A stretch of 64,000 nucleotides of DNA from Nitrospira sp. (GTDB taxonomy: Bacteria; Nitrospirota; Nitrospiria; Nitrospirales; Nitrospiraceae), in contig JACOEK010000001.1 of the NCBI GenBank assembly GCA_024998595.1, positions 124,001 through 188,000 of the forward strand, given 5' to 3'. The notes below the pieces were generated by a model. That model did not search any database. It saw nothing but the letters and a program-made list of their open reading frames with translations, and had not been told where the DNA came from. Each line of letters begins with the position of its first letter. Position 1 is the first letter of the stretch. A program made the position numbers and the translations under genes. This document shows, piece by piece, positions 1,537 to 37,557 of this stretch.

Positions 1537-2934
1537 CTAGATCTCATAGCTGCTCTCTTTGTGGGGCACGACAATGGATGTCCGGGGGTATTCGCTCTGG
1601 ATGGCTGCTGCGAGTGACAGCGCCTGTTTTTCTTCTCCGTGGACCACGAAAATGTGCTGAGGAGCGGGAGAGATCGCTCTCACGTAGGCGAGCAGGTCGT
1701 TCCGGTCCGCATGGGCCGACAACCCGTTAAACACCACCACTTGGGCGCGGCGCGTGGTGGGGATACCGAACAGCGGCACCACGTCCCACCCTTCAACCAG
1801 CCTGCGTCCCAACGTATGTTCGGCCTGAAACCCCACGATCGCGATGATATTGGCTTCGTCCTGAATGGCATGTTTGAGGTGATGGACCACGCGTCCTCCT
1901 TCGCACATGCCGGAGGAGGCGATGATCACGCAGGGGCCCTTCATGTTATTCAAACGCTTGCTTTCATTCGGCGATGAGACATAGCGGATATACCGCGCGG
2001 CAAAGGGATCTCCTTCCGAGGTGAAGGTGCGATAGGTTTCTTCGTCGTAACATTCAGGATGCTTACGAAAGACTTCCGTGACCTTCGAGGCCAAAGGTGA
2101 ATCGATGTAAATGGGAAGCGGGTCGATCCGTCCCTCGGTCACCAATTGCTTGATGCGCATGACGAGGTCTTGCGTCCGACCGAGCGCGAACGCCGGCACG
2201 ATAATCTTGCTGTGATGCGCTTTGGCGTGGGCGACGAGCTGTTGTGCTTTCTTGGTCAGCGCCTCGCCGGCTTCCTCATGCAAGCGATCGCCGTAGGTCG
2301 ATTCGATGATCAACACATCGCAACTCGGCGGCGGCGTGGGGTCGCGGAGAATGGGCATGTGCGACCGTCCGAGATCACCGGAGAACAGGACGGTGGTGCT
2401 GTTGCCGCGGGCGGAGTATTTGAGACGAATGGCGGCGGACCCCAGAATGTGACCCACATCGTGGAAGGAGGCCGTCACGCGGGGAGTTACTTTGATCGTG
2501 TCCCCATAGCGGGCACCGACGAAGCGGCGGATGATGGCTCGCGCATCACGAGCCCCATAAAACGGTTGCAAGCACTTCCGTCCGCGACGGTTCTCCATCC
2601 GGTTCAGGTAGGCGCAATCGTTTTCCTGCAAGCGGGCGCAGTCCTCCAGCATCACGGCGGTGAGGTCCGCAGTGGCACGGGTCATGTGCACGTCTCCGCG
2701 AAACTGGTGTTGGCCAAGGACGGGAAGCGCACCGGAATGGTCGATATGCGCATGCGACAGGAGCACGGCCTGGATCGCGCGCGGGTCAAATCCCAAAAAG
2801 CGGTTCTGCCGATCGGCCTCTTGCCGCTGCCCCTGAAAAAGTCCGCAGTCCAAGAGGATGTTGCTGCCGGGCATTTCCAGCAGATGACGGCTGCCGGTGA
2901 CCGATCGCGCGGCACCATGAAAGGAAAGTTTCAT
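1537..2934 (-). CDS. Beta-CASP metallo-beta-lactamase fold hydrolase (RNase-like)
   Basis: A 465-residue metallo-beta-lactamase fold protein with a beta-CASP insert, the architecture of CPSF73/RNase J-type nucleases. The metal-binding motif HAHIDH is at residues 61-66. Later conserved blocks include FSGDLGR, ESTYGDR and the C-terminal GLSAHADR. It probably cleaves RNA in the cytoplasm, but the substrate is unknown. I chose the ATG at 2934 because its ATG overlaps the TGA of the upstream LOG gene (shared ATGA), so translation is likely coupled. A longer in-frame start at 2976 would lie inside that gene and adds 14 residues that do not look like the family. Confidence 0.9.
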   Translation of the reverse strand: MKLSFHGAARSVTGSRHLLEMPGSNILLDCGLFQGQRQEADRQNRFLGFDPRAIQAVLLSHAHIDHSGALPVLGQHQFRGDVHMTRATADLTAVMLEDCARLQENDCAYLNRMENRRGRKCLQPFYGARDARAIIRRFVGARYGDTIKVTPRVTASFHDVGHILGSAAIRLKYSARGNSTTVLFSGDLGRSHMPILRDPTPPPSCDVLIIESTYGDRLHEEAGEALTKKAQQLVAHAKAHHSKIIVPAFALGRTQDLVMRIKQLVTEGRIDPLPIYIDSPLASKVTEVFRKHPECYDEETYRTFTSEGDPFAARYIRYVSSPNESKRLNNMKGPCVIIASSGMCEGGRVVHHLKHAIQDEANIIAIVGFQAEHTLGRRLVEGWDVVPLFGIPTTRRAQVVVFNGLSAHADRNDLLAYVRAISPAPQHIFVVHGEEKQALSLAAAIQSEYPRTSIVVPHKESSYEI

Positions 2935-3788
2935 CGGCTGGCAGGGCCTCCATGGTTCAGACTGATCAGCTCCCATGCCTGTTGAGCCGTTTCCGCAAAA
3001 TGGAAGAGCGAGAGATCATTGGGGCCGATGAGGCCTTCTTCCAACAGCATGGACCAATTGATGAGCCGATCCCAATAGGCCTGCCCGATGAGGACAATCG
3101 TGATGTTGCGAGTCTTGCCTGTTTGGAGAAGGGTGAGAGTTTCAAACAATTCGTCGAGCGTGCCGAATCCACCGGGAAAGACCACCAGCGCCCGCGCGCG
3201 AAGGAGAAAATGCATTTTGCGTAACGCGAAATAGCGAAATTGAAAGCAGAGGTCCGGGGTGATGTAGGGGTTCGGGTGTTGCTCGTGCGGCAGCGTGATG
3301 TTGAGCCCTATCGATTTGGCGCCTGCATCGGCCGCCCCTCGATTGGCGGCTTCCATGATGCCGGGTCCTCCGCCGGTAACAATGACGTAATCGCACTGCC
3401 CATCGATTTGACAGGTTGCAGATACCAGTCGGCCGAATTCGCGCGCGATGTCATAGTAATGAGCCATGGCCAGCCGGCGCTCAGCCAGCGTCACCTGCTG
3501 CTGTCGCAGGGCATCCTGTGGGGCGGTTTTCAATTCCGCCTTGGCGGCTTCCAGCGCTTGACGGGCCAGGGAGGGTTCGACCAACCGCGAGCTGCCGAAG
3601 ACGACAATCGTCGAACGGATGCCCTGCTCTGTTTGGATCAATTCCGGCTTCAGTAATTCCAGCCCGAGACGGAGCGGGCGCAGTTCATCGCGCTGGAGAA
3701 ACTCGATGTCGCGGTCGGCCGGGATATAGGAGGAAGACGTGGGGTGTGCCTGTCGGCTCGCTGAATCGTCGGAGGAACCTGCGCCCAT
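2931..3788 (-). CDS. LOG family protein (TIGR00730-like, nucleoside 5'-monophosphate phosphoribohydrolase family)
   Basis: A protein of the LOG/lysine-decarboxylase-like Rossmann family. Numbered from an upstream TTG at 3824, the blocks are GGGPGIMEAANRGA (151-164), RKMHF (202-206) and PGGFGTLDELFE (217-228), the signature that binds and cleaves nucleotide monophosphates at the ribosyl bond. The name lysine decarboxylase seen in databases is misleading for this family. The start chosen is the ATG at 3788, because a good sigma70 -10 box (TATAAT) covers 3801-3796 and would put the transcript 5' end at or next to this ATG. Other starts at 3797 and 3824 (TTG) lie inside the promoter. It overlaps the beta-CASP gene by 4 bases. 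Confidence 0.88.
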   Translation of the reverse strand: MGAGSSDDSASRQAHPTSSSYIPADRDIEFLQRDELRPLRLGLELLKPELIQTEQGIRSTIVVFGSSRLVEPSLARQALEAAKAELKTAPQDALRQQQVTLAERRLAMAHYYDIAREFGRLVSATCQIDGQCDYVIVTGGGPGIMEAANRGAADAGAKSIGLNITLPHEQHPNPYITPDLCFQFRYFALRKMHFLLRARALVVFPGGFGTLDELFETLTLLQTGKTRNITIVLIGQAYWDRLINWSMLLEEGLIGPNDLSLFHFAETAQQAWELISLNHGGPASR

Positions 3789-33331: not shown

Positions 33332-35032
33332 TCAACGGCGGGTGCGACGAGTGGGAGTGGTTCGTTTCTTTGGGACGGATTTCCGGCGCGTGGCCTTCGT
33401 CGGTGTGAGGAATGTCACCAGGCTGCGAATGGTACGCACGGGATTCGGTCCGAGAGCAATACGGACCGCCGGGCGCTGATGTGTGTGCAGCGATTGCAAG
33501 TCGCCGATGGCCTGGGCTTGAGCCAATGTCCCGAAGGTATAGAACTTTTCCGGGACGGCCAGATCCGGCTTCATCGTATCGACCAATTCGAGAAACAGTC
33601 CGCTGTTCGGTCCGCCCTTGTGAAGTTGCCCGGTCGAATGCAGATAGCGAGGTCCATACCCTGCCGTCGTGGCCAGGTGGTGTCGCACCATGAGGGCCTT
33701 GCGCAACGCTCGCAGCGCGGCTTCTATCTGAGAGCTGGGCGTGGTGTAGGCCAGAATGGCCACGTAGCGATTCGGTGCAGTCTGCTCGAGCAATTGAGTT
33801 AAGGCCTGCTTGGGTGTCAGCACCGCCAGAGAGGGCAATGCCCCCTGGGTTTCGACCTCTTTCAGAACGCGGCCCGTGTTGTCTTTGCTTTCTTGGACAT
33901 TCGGTTGATCGAATGGATGAATGCCAAGGGCATGTCCGGCTATGGCCGTGGCGAACTCCCAACGGAAGAATTCGCCGCCCAGGTCGTAGCGATCTTTCAG
34001 CTGTAAGGGATACACGGGATGGCCTGCTCGCTGCAGCGCGGAAACGGTTCGATCCAAGGAAGCATTCCGATCGCCTCTCAGCCGGAGTGAGACAAATACG
34101 CGATCGGATCCATATGCGGCAGGTGATGCGAGTGGCTCTCCTGCGATGGGGATAAGGCCGGTTCCTTCCTTCCCGGTGCTTTCGGCGAGCAATTGTTCTA
34201 CCCAGAGTCCGAATGAGGTTAGTGCGGGAGAGGCGAGAAGGGTGACCTTGTCCCGACCGCTTCGGGCCATGGCAGCCATCATGCCTCCCAGGGCGGCTCC
34301 CGGATTATCTTTTGCCGCAGTATGCCGACAGGCTTCGCGCATGGCGAGGGCGCGAGCGAGGAGTTTTCCTACATCCAGCCCAAGCAAGGCGGCGGGAACC
34401 AGTCCAAAATACGAAAGAACGGAATAGCGCCCGCCGATGTCCGGTTGATTGGTAAAGGTGCGCCAGAACCCGCGTTCACGCGCGAGTTGTTCGAGCCCGG
34501 TTCCCGGATCCGTAATGGCGACAAATTGCGCGCCGCCACGATGACCTTTCGTCTGATGGACAAGTTTCCAGAAGTGGGCGAAGAGGGACATGACTTCGAT
34601 CGTGCCCCCGGATTTGCTCGCCACAAGAAACAACGTCCGGGCCGGTTGGATCGCATTGGTCACTTGCCGGACCCACCCCGGTACCGTGGAGTCCAAGACC
34701 CAGAGTCGAGGGGCACCCTTCGATGATCCAAAAGTGCAGCGCAGTACTTCCGGTCCCAGGCTGCTGCCTCCCATGCCAAGCAGCACCACGTCGGTCGTGC
34801 GGGCCTCTCGAGCGGCTTGGGCGAAACTTCGCAGGTCGGAAAGTCCGTCCTGCATGTGGTCAAGGACTGTCAGCCAGCCCAGCCTGTTGTCGATTTCGGT
34901 GGGATTCGATTTCCAGAGGGTATGGTCTCGAGTCCAAATGCGCTCAATCGCGCGGCTGCTTGTCAGTTCATCGAATGTCGTCGTCAGGATCTGGCTGTCC
35001 AGAAGGGAGGAGACCTTGGGGCGGATCGGCAT
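33332..35032 (-). CDS. pgi: Glucose-6-phosphate isomerase
   Basis: A 566-residue sugar isomerase (SIS) enzyme interconverting glucose 6-phosphate and fructose 6-phosphate. Seen blocks are VVLLGMGGSSLGPEVL, LVASKSGGTIEVMSLF and DIGGRYSVLSYFGLVPAAL. It resembles the Pgi half of transaldolase-Pgi fusions, but no transaldolase domain is attached. The C-terminal tail is basic (RRKSVPKKRTTPTRRTRR). The ATG at 35032 has GAGAG upstream; a longer frame to 35071 is unlikely. It heads the operon. Confidence 0.93.
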   Translation of the reverse strand: MPIRPKVSSLLDSQILTTTFDELTSSRAIERIWTRDHTLWKSNPTEIDNRLGWLTVLDHMQDGLSDLRSFAQAAREARTTDVVLLGMGGSSLGPEVLRCTFGSSKGAPRLWVLDSTVPGWVRQVTNAIQPARTLFLVASKSGGTIEVMSLFAHFWKLVHQTKGHRGGAQFVAITDPGTGLEQLARERGFWRTFTNQPDIGGRYSVLSYFGLVPAALLGLDVGKLLARALAMREACRHTAAKDNPGAALGGMMAAMARSGRDKVTLLASPALTSFGLWVEQLLAESTGKEGTGLIPIAGEPLASPAAYGSDRVFVSLRLRGDRNASLDRTVSALQRAGHPVYPLQLKDRYDLGGEFFRWEFATAIAGHALGIHPFDQPNVQESKDNTGRVLKEVETQGALPSLAVLTPKQALTQLLEQTAPNRYVAILAYTTPSSQIEAALRALRKALMVRHHLATTAGYGPRYLHSTGQLHKGGPNSGLFLELVDTMKPDLAVPEKFYTFGTLAQAQAIGDLQSLHTHQRPAVRIALGPNPVRTIRSLVTFLTPTKATRRKSVPKKRTTPTRRTRR

Positions 35033-35216
35033 AACACGCTCTCTTCCATAGGTGGAGGAACGACGATGCACGTCGGCTGAGCCTTATCTTAGGTTCGGGA
35101 GTTTGAAAAGGCAAACGAGGAAGGGGATTGGTAGGTCAGGGAAGATTGAGATGAACCGAATTTGATGAATGATGGGGGCAGATGCCGCAGCGGGAAGGTA
35201 CGTAGCGCAGCGTGCG

Positions 35217-36365
35217 CTAGGTCTCTTCTTCCTGATCGCCCAAGTCAGCGAGGACCAGCGAGATGGAATTTTGGGATTCCAGCGCCCCGACGATATTGAC
35301 CGGTGTCCCTACGGCGACGTGATCAAACAACTGCGCAATCTGCGGGTTATCCAGCACGATACTGCCGTACGGTTGATCTGAAATCCCTTGTGCGATGCCG
35401 TGAAGCTGAATGAGGCCTGGCATATGTTGGCTTTTGGGAATCAACCCTGCCTTTTGGGCTTCCTCAAATCGACGTCGGTCGTCGCTATTGGGATAGTCAA
35501 GAATCAGCGCCCGGAAGTACGGAGTTTGTCCAGGTCCGCGCTTGCGTTGAATGCGATACTCGCCTTCTGGGGTTGCCCCATCTCCATAGTGCTGTTTTGC
35601 CCGGATGCCTCGTGATCCTAATCGAATGGGATAGGTCAGGACTTTTCGACCGTTCTTGTACAGCGTGAGGACGCGGTCGGCCTTGCTGACGACAATGGCC
35701 TGGGCCCGGTGCGTTCGAGACCAGTCAATGGTCCGCTGAGCAGATTCCCGCCAGGCTGAGATGAGATCATCGTCCGCATACCGTCCTAATTCGTTCGTGA
35801 GTAGTGCAGTCTGGGTGAGCAGGACCTTGCCGGCGCGCTCTGAGGCCTGGATCGAATGTTCGAATTGTCCCTGTTCAAGGAACAGTCGAGCCTGTTTGAC
35901 GTGCACTTCAGTTTCGACCGGATGTTCCCCGAGCACCACACGACTACCGATGTCTCCCACCCGGGTGTTGAGAAGGCGGAGTCGCTGTTCGATTCTGGCT
36001 AGTTTCGCTTCGGCACTGGTGCGCTGAGCCTGAATACGGCTATTTACGTCACTCACAAGCTCTGTGCCCTCGACTTGAAGGGCTTCCAAATCGGATTCCA
36101 GCTCATTATCTTCCCAGGGCCACCGGACGATATTTTCCTCGGCCCGGATTCGGCCTTTAAGCTCAATCCATTGGCGGGAGAACTTGGAATAGGATTCGGG
36201 GGTGACATCGGAGGCTCGAAGTGTCACTAGGTCACGATCGATGCTCTCGATAGCTTCCACCAATTCATCAGGGACCGTTTCGACGCACCCGCCCGCACTC
36301 ATCGACAAAAGACCGACGAGGGTGAACCGAGTTAACATGCGGCAGATCTGATGTGGGCGGCTCAT
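35217..36365 (-). CDS. YkuD (L,D-transpeptidase)-like lipoprotein lacking the catalytic Cys
   Basis: A 382-residue lipoprotein (lipobox SAGGC, Cys27). A helical, coiled-coil-like region spans about 30-215, and a YkuD domain about 222-362 contains IVVSKADRVLTLYKNGRKVL, GDGATPEGEYRI and IQLHGIA (His322). Where L,D-transpeptidases have (S/T)xGC, this protein reads QPYGSIVLDNP, with Ser335 in place of the nucleophilic Cys (codon AGT). It therefore probably lacks normal 3-3 crosslinking activity, or uses Ser. It may bind peptidoglycan instead. The gene stands alone. Confidence 0.85.
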   Translation of the reverse strand: MSRPHQICRMLTRFTLVGLLSMSAGGCVETVPDELVEAIESIDRDLVTLRASDVTPESYSKFSRQWIELKGRIRAEENIVRWPWEDNELESDLEALQVEGTELVSDVNSRIQAQRTSAEAKLARIEQRLRLLNTRVGDIGSRVVLGEHPVETEVHVKQARLFLEQGQFEHSIQASERAGKVLLTQTALLTNELGRYADDDLISAWRESAQRTIDWSRTHRAQAIVVSKADRVLTLYKNGRKVLTYPIRLGSRGIRAKQHYGDGATPEGEYRIQRKRGPGQTPYFRALILDYPNSDDRRRFEEAQKAGLIPKSQHMPGLIQLHGIAQGISDQPYGSIVLDNPQIAQLFDHVAVGTPVNIVGALESQNSISLVLADLGDQEEET

Positions 36366-36795
36366 GATATCTGTATTCTATCTTGTAGAGGGCGTATCCA
36401 GCGAGTTCTTCCCGCCTTTTGTCCTCACTCGCACGGTCGTGTGACCGTCGAGTTCTTCCGCTGCTACGGCTCTGATGTCTGGCCGAGTCACTTTCTTAAG
36501 CTTGAAATCCGCGCGAAGGCCGTTGGTTCGATGACATCAATCTTCTCTACGCAATGTAAGTGCCAGGGATTTCATTCTGTCACAGGTCATTGAATGCTTC
36601 GCGAGAACAACTAGTTACAAGGAAACATTCAGTTGCCCAGCTGACTGTCTGCTGTGGCATCTTTGCCGCAATCGGGCAAGAGTGCCTCAAGAACTGGTGA
36701 CACTCAGGTGCCTGCCCATTGGAAGATGACTCACGGTCTATGGATTTTGGATTGTATTCCCTCGATTTCGTGGCAGGGATCCGGGGGCAGATTGA
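36366..36795. other. Intergenic stretch upstream of rpmH
   Basis: About 430 bases between the YkuD-like gene and the rpmH promoter with no supported gene. Long minus-strand frames here are Arg/Ser-rich and antisense to rpmH. I see no DnaA boxes, so it is not an obvious origin. Confidence 0.5.
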
Positions 36796-36824
36796 TTGAC
36801 AGCCTCCCGTTGCGCCCCTATAAT
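36796..36824 (+). promoter_or_regulatory. Consensus sigma70 promoter of rpmH-rnpA operon
   Basis: Perfect TTGACA (36796-36801), 17-base spacer and perfect TATAAT (36819-36824). It is the strongest promoter visible in the window and drives the ribosomal protein L34 / RNase P / YidC cluster. Confidence 0.9.
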
Positions 36825-36868
36825 GCGGCCTCTTTACTGCAAAATGATTTCTCGAGAAGGAGTGCGCA

Positions 36869-37006
36869 ATGTCGTTCACTTTTAAACAACCCTCGAATCT
36901 CAAGCGCAAGCGGGAACATGGATTTCGGAAGCGCATGAGCACTAAGAACGGCCGCAAAGTCATCGCTCGTCGTAGAGCCAAAGGCCGCGCTCGCCTCACC
37001 GTCTGA
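36869..37006 (+). CDS. rpmH: Ribosomal protein L34
   Basis: A 45-residue, highly basic protein: [19 protein letters not shown], then [20 protein letters not shown], the full L34 signature. It is a 50S subunit protein bound to 23S rRNA. The ribosome site GAAGGAG precedes the ATG. It is first in the origin-proximal rpmH-rnpA-yidD-yidC cluster and directly follows a consensus promoter. Confidence 0.98.
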
Positions 37007-37185
37007 TCTTTCCTGCCGCTAGGCAATCTGCATGTAGGCAAACATCCAGGTGGTGGGTGGTCACCTCGGGTGAGTACTGTCGTTTTAGCCTGGTCGTGGA
37101 AGAATAAGGGCGACAAAAAGGATGATACGCGACATCGAATAGATGAAGCGCGGTCGAACCTGCTCACCCCGCAGACAGGTCGGTT

Positions 37186-37557
37186 ATGACGGCAGGACAG
37201 ACGTCTGCGCCGTTTTTCTTGAAGCGTAGCCGGGATATCCAGCTCATCAAGAAGAATGGGCGACGGGTTTCAACAGGATTGTTCAATCTCCAGATTTGTC
37301 CGGGCATGCTGCCCCAGGATGCCATGATGGGGATTGTCATCGGACGGCGGTTTGGGACGGCGGTGCGTCGGAACCGGGCGAAGCGCCTGTTTCGCGAATT
37401 GGGCCGCGCAGTTCGGCCGACGTTGATATCAGGGCATGCGTTCCTGGTATTCCCGAAGCGAGATTGTCTGAATTTGCCGTTTGCGGAGCTGCAAAACGTA
37501 TGGCGCAGCACATTGCAAAGACAGCGGTTGGCCCGTTTTGGGGATATCTCGTCGTGA
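37186..37557 (+). CDS. rnpA: Ribonuclease P protein component
   Basis: A 123-residue basic protein subunit of RNase P, which with the RNA subunit trims the 5' ends of tRNA precursors. The RNR motif [11 protein letters not shown] is at 61-71, preceded by [11 protein letters not shown] leader of 179 bases separates it from rpmH. Its stop overlaps the yidD start (GTGA). Confidence 0.95.

Follow-up and report, generated by a model that had tools for sequence, protein, structure and literature searches.

A conserved YkuD-type lipoprotein of Nitrospira with serine at the catalytic cysteine position and without its partner L,D-transpeptidase

The window, the whole 64,000-nucleotide stretch of Nitrospira DNA analysed here, carries on its minus strand an open reading frame (35217–36365) for a predicted lipoprotein of 382 residues. 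The first-pass annotation had proposed this frame without its strand, and had described an L,D-transpeptidase-like lipoprotein with serine in place of the catalytic cysteine. The frame is real, and the residue numbers given there (His322 of LHG; Ser335 of YGSIVLDN, codon AGT) agree with ours. The locus comprises the following genes and features, in which LDT stands for L,D-transpeptidase.

35217–36365, minus strand: YkuD-type lipoprotein gene, 382 residues, with a helical N-domain and a YkuD domain without its nucleophile; single-copy orthologues occur family-wide
36285–36287, minus strand: lipobox Cys27 (SAGG-C), a lipidation site predicted from sequence
35721–36284, minus strand: helical N-domain, residues 28–215, homologous (hhalign) to the Lpp-like lipoprotein whose gene lies next to the Cys orthologues
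35292–35702, minus strand: YkuD domain, residues 222–358 (PF03734, E of 8e-16); profile matches DpaA, Bd1075, Pgp2 and Csd6
35361–35363, minus strand: Ser335 (AGT; plus-strand letters act), at the catalytic cysteine position (DpaA Cys143)
35370–35372, minus strand: Pro332, in Cys orthologues the Thr/Ser of the [ST]xGC motif
35400–35402, minus strand: His322, at the catalytic histidine position (HG motif), invariant
35595–35597, minus strand: Lys257, invariant, aligned with Lys83 of DpaA, which binds mDAP
35072–35216: short gap before pgi, the place of a canonical LDT and a third ORF in Cys-type genomes
36366–37185: gap towards rnpA, the place of the Lpp-like lipoprotein gene in Cys-type genomes
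33332–35071, minus strand: pgi, conserved downstream neighbour, followed by pgl, glk, rpiA and pepN
37186–37557, plus strand: rnpA, conserved divergent neighbour, followed by yidD, yidC, mnmE and mnmG

PF03734 matches residues 222–358 with 59.4 bits (curated cut-off 23.4), and the lipobox cysteine is common to all orthologues of the family that were aligned (judged by eye). LHG (His322) is followed by DQPYGSIVLDN, in which Ser335 replaces the cysteine. The histidine of the HG motif is present, and the [ST]xGC motif has lost both its catalytic cysteine (Ser335) and its first residue (Pro332). A search of 100 relatives gave a match in 63. Serine occupies the nucleophile position in 28 of the 29 orthologues from the window's genus and a single sister genus, the remaining one (G025) having glycine (GGC). 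In the family's other genera, 28 orthologues have cysteine, and the more distant G048 has glycine. AlphaFold2, given the window protein and 18 close orthologues, reached a pLDDT of 53, and the model was unusable.

Both AGC and AGT serine codons occur, and Ca. Nitrospira defluvii, whose genome (FP929003, L075) is complete, also encodes the serine protein. A wrong base call was rejected because the serine recurs across 28 genomes in both codons, a complete genome included; a sequencing or annotation artefact, to which we attach virtually no probability, is refuted by the same residue in separate assemblies, some of them complete. A catalytic cysteine elsewhere in the protein, or a misalignment, was also considered and rejected: the profile of the Cys relatives puts their GC cysteine on the catalytic cysteine region of Bd1075 and Pgp2, which makes Ser335 the nucleophile position. 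The description of a YkuD domain with serine at the cysteine position was thus borne out.

The best match of the window protein among solved structures is DpaA (8IKR, E of 1.2e-5). The best NCBIfam match is DpaA/YafK (NF040599), at 25 bits (32.9 bits for a Cys relative), far below the cut-off of 365. DpaA (YafK, LdtF) of E. coli and the window protein have in common the Lys83 equivalent, the GD--PEG strand and a YPN/FPN-DR segment. In the docking model of its authors, Lys83 of DpaA holds the D-centre carboxylate of mDAP; the K83A mutant is inactive and Y109A has 0.7% activity (PMC10653827). By alignment, with a numbering offset inferred from construct length, Lys83 and Tyr109 fall on Lys257 and Tyr283. 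DpaA is a single-domain active amidase, whereas the window protein has Ser335 at the place of Cys143, together with a predicted lipid anchor and an extra Lpp-like helical N-domain.

The profile of the Cys relatives also matches the LD-carboxypeptidases Bd1075, Pgp2 and Csd6, with a fit about equal to that with DpaA, and for Bd1075 and Pgp2 the alignment runs through the catalytic cysteine. These are active cysteine enzymes with other accessory domains, whereas the window protein lacks the cysteine. Because of the four matches, the Cys relatives may be classed, by resemblance, as DpaA-like amidases or LD-carboxypeptidases. The earlier term 'L,D-transpeptidase-like' holds for the YkuD domain and not for a classical transpeptidase, the nearest kinds being the DpaA/YafK amidase and the YkuD LD-carboxypeptidases.

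The helical N-terminal part noted at first pass is present; its homology to a lipoprotein lost from the locus had been missed. Residues 28–215 align with the Lpp-like lipoprotein over 161 columns (hhalign probability of 92 and score of 50.5), compared with scores of 14.9 for a reversed profile and at most 23.3 for 20 block shuffles. The protein is thus a fusion of two modules, one Lpp-like and one of the YkuD type.

The flanks are identical in Cys and Ser genomes, with mnmG-mnmE-yidC-yidD-rnpA diverging and then pgi-pgl-glk-rpiA-pepN, and this conservation of locus and flanks makes the Cys and Ser genes orthologous. Four genes make up the Cys-type cluster: those for the Lpp-like helical lipoprotein and the Cys protein, that for a canonical LDT (HGCIR), which lies directly downstream of the Cys gene, and an uncharacterised third ORF. 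The Lpp-like lipoprotein has approximately 205 residues and a C-terminus that is usually rich in lysine (for example, AAKKK); in two Cys genomes (L093 and L119) the tail ends in arginine rather than lysine. The third ORF has no Pfam match and shows a weak likeness, over 42 columns, to the N-terminal hairpin of the LDT (hhalign probability of 55). One example lies at L088:4873–5511 on the minus strand, and this ORF is lost along with the LDT.

A genome-wide search at E 1e-3 detected the LDT, the Lpp-like gene and the third ORF in none of the 29 genomes of the genus, some of which are drafts. In the sister genus (G042) and in G048 the LDT is absent, and a diverged Lpp-like gene, whose product has no lysine tail, is still present. 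In 15 of the 28 genomes of the genus with a match, that of Ca. N. defluvii among them, no YkuD protein other than the Ser protein was found, so that YkuD transpeptidation seems to be missing from these diderms. OmpA-like domains gave 12 matches in the genome from which the window comes, and these could provide tethering without the window protein.

Loss of the cysteine is coupled to loss of the LDT. The first-pass annotation had missed that close relatives keep the cysteine at the same locus, and that its loss accompanies that of the LDT and the Lpp-like gene. The set comprised 121 orthologous rows, draft genomes among them, with the LDT state known in 113. All 77 LDT-bearing rows have cysteine; among the 36 LDT-less rows, 31 have serine or glycine and five keep cysteine. 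The tree requires three independent cysteine losses, all in LDT-less lineages, and one Ser-to-Gly change. Besides the loss in Nitrospira and its sister genus, one gave glycine (G048) and one gave serine (G202, genus g10), the latter reading QTLGSVML in an otherwise intact motif, next to an LDT that is broken. Branches without the LDT account for 19.5% of the ingroup branch length, and all three losses would fall there by chance with a probability of approximately 0.007 under a length-proportional model, a figure computed post hoc with whole stem branches assigned as LDT-less and draft genomes included. An independent-pairs sign test gave about two concordant and no discordant pairs, too few for significance. 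The G202 copy (L162, minus-strand ORF 2386–3543) has undergone a recent Cys-to-Ser change and seems to show the same process near its outset.

The Nitrospira protein is under strong purifying selection. Values of dN/dS were determined by the Nei–Gojobori method, for which dS is near saturation in distant pairs and close sets agree. In the Ser genus, the YkuD domain has a dN/dS of 0.027–0.038 and the loop of the former active site one of 0.026–0.049; between Cys orthologues, the domain gives pairwise values of 0.05–0.22. The whole gene has a dN/dS of 0.055, the lowest of eight local genes tested, with pgl, pgi, rnpA, yidC, mnmE, glk and rpiA at 0.065–0.157 in the same genomes. The C-terminal tail (residues 359–382, ESQNSISLVLADLGDQEEET) is nearly invariant in Nitrospira, with a dN/dS of approximately 0–0.014, below that of the YkuD domain, and is a possible interaction surface.

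In genus g10, dN/dS of the YkuD domain is 0.149 in LDT-less copies versus 0.046 in LDT-intact ones, and that of the N-domain 0.321 versus 0.059. Several of the LDT-less copies are broken, and other g10 genomes lack the YkuD domain or the whole gene. Such relaxation and breakage are what would be seen if an enzyme no longer needed had lost its cysteine and its gene were drifting. For Nitrospira a decaying remnant of this kind is most improbable: the dN/dS of the gene matches the low values of LDT-intact relatives and lies below that of seven neighbouring genes, and no broken copy was found among the orthologues of the genus. Loss of the LDT in g10 seems to end the need for the protein, so that in Nitrospira it would be kept for something else. 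In L170–L174 (G184, G186, G189, G190 and G198), the helical N-domain alone is left (approximately 190–210 residues), the YkuD domain being gone.

The Ser group shows three further changes that are nearly fixed, namely motif Thr332 to Pro, Glu320 to Gln and Gly316 to Pro, and Lys257, GDGATPEG, YPN, His322 and Gly334 are invariant. A switch of chemistry, with Ser335 as the working nucleophile and His322 as base, would be consistent with the fixation of serine in 28 of 29 orthologues, the invariance of His322 and Gly334, and the strong constraint on the former active-site loop. Turnover of beta-lactams that is cysteine-independent and serine-dependent has been described for Lpg1514 of Legionella (PMC13400389), which resembles the window protein in being a YafK-like lipoprotein. 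However, Lpg1514 keeps its cysteine (Cys174), and its active Ser132 is a different residue, probably near Thr281 of the window protein by spacing; it calls for caution in that the YafK fold can act without its cysteine through another serine. The steadiness of Ser335 makes serine catalysis possible, and this is weakened by the tolerated glycine in one member of the genus and by the lost neighbouring motif residues (Thr to Pro and Glu320 to Gln). Furthermore, AGY is one base change from TGY, which makes serine a cheap substitution, the two additional independent losses gave serine and glycine, and the partner LDT and the Lpp-like substrate are gone. We consider a catalytic Ser335 improbable.

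Of the two suggestions made at first pass, use of the serine is thus disfavoured, and the assignment as a pseudoenzyme appears well supported. An essential catalytic residue has been lost throughout the lineage in a conserved protein under strong purifying selection, with the motif threonine also lost and a glycine variant present.

Some residues of the pocket have changed, the DpaA Gln86 position being Tyr260 and the Arg108 position Pro282, and mDAP may for this reason not be bound. A role without catalysis, as a scaffold or regulator whose binding partner is a protein and not peptidoglycan, would accommodate these changes, an N-domain that is an Lpp-like helical module, and a tail whose near-invariance within the genus suggests a protein interface. 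Invariance of Lys257, His322 and the GDGATPEG strand would be unexpected for an unused pocket, and we judge this role rather unlikely.

We favour a non-catalytic, peptidoglycan-binding role, derived from an ancestral amidase or carboxypeptidase, which on the sequence evidence has a somewhat better than even chance of being correct. Retention of Lys257, the equivalent of DpaA Lys83, and of His322 makes peptidoglycan binding by the window protein plausible. The pattern as a whole suggests that a former enzyme now serves the cell envelope in a non-catalytic capacity.

The ancestor would have combined two parts, a helical lipoprotein domain resembling Lpp and a cysteine hydrolase akin to DpaA/YafK or to the LD-carboxypeptidases. 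In the ancestral cluster, the LDT probably joined the basic C-terminus of the Lpp-like lipoprotein to peptidoglycan, and the Cys protein probably cut the lipoprotein–peptidoglycan link so made; this substrate and chemistry are inferred from resemblance and from the gene neighbours. Such a scheme would correspond to that of Braun lipoprotein (Lpp), LdtA–C and DpaA, in which a lipoprotein with a basic C-terminus is served by attaching LDTs and a detaching amidase. The Nitrospiraceae protein differs from Lpp in its length of approximately 200 residues, the absence of a Pfam match to Lpp and the clustering of the genes, and its covalent linkage is putative.

In the ancestor of the genus and its sister genus, the LDT was evidently lost, the cysteine replaced by serine and the site remodelled to DQP[YF]GSI. 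The present protein would be lipid-anchored, and its old pocket (Lys257, His322 and GDGATPEG) would bind mDAP stem peptides without a covalent bond. With the Lpp-like helical part as a spacer, the protein may act as a tether between membrane and cell wall, or as a sensor, and not as an enzyme. A more tentative proposal, which we regard as possible though doubtful, is that the covalent lipoprotein–peptidoglycan linkage of Lpp-like protein, LDT and amidase gave way to one non-covalent tether, for which the detaching enzyme, now dead, was recruited.

The open-access literature searched yielded neither a conserved YkuD protein that naturally lacks the cysteine nor any account of this protein in Nitrospira. 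Loss of the cysteine recurs three times within the orthologues, and the likely evolutionary order is loss of the partner LDT, followed either by gene decay, as in g10, or by constrained retention without the cysteine, as in Nitrospira. The locus offers a natural experiment, in a nitrifier of ecological importance, on the consequences for envelope tethering when a covalent link disappears. Outside the family, two order-level relatives (L060 and L061, from G088 and G081, respectively) each have two divergent Cys-type copies per genome, several kilobases apart. The lipobox cysteine is missing from its expected place in these copies, which hints at another kind of membrane anchor outside the family.
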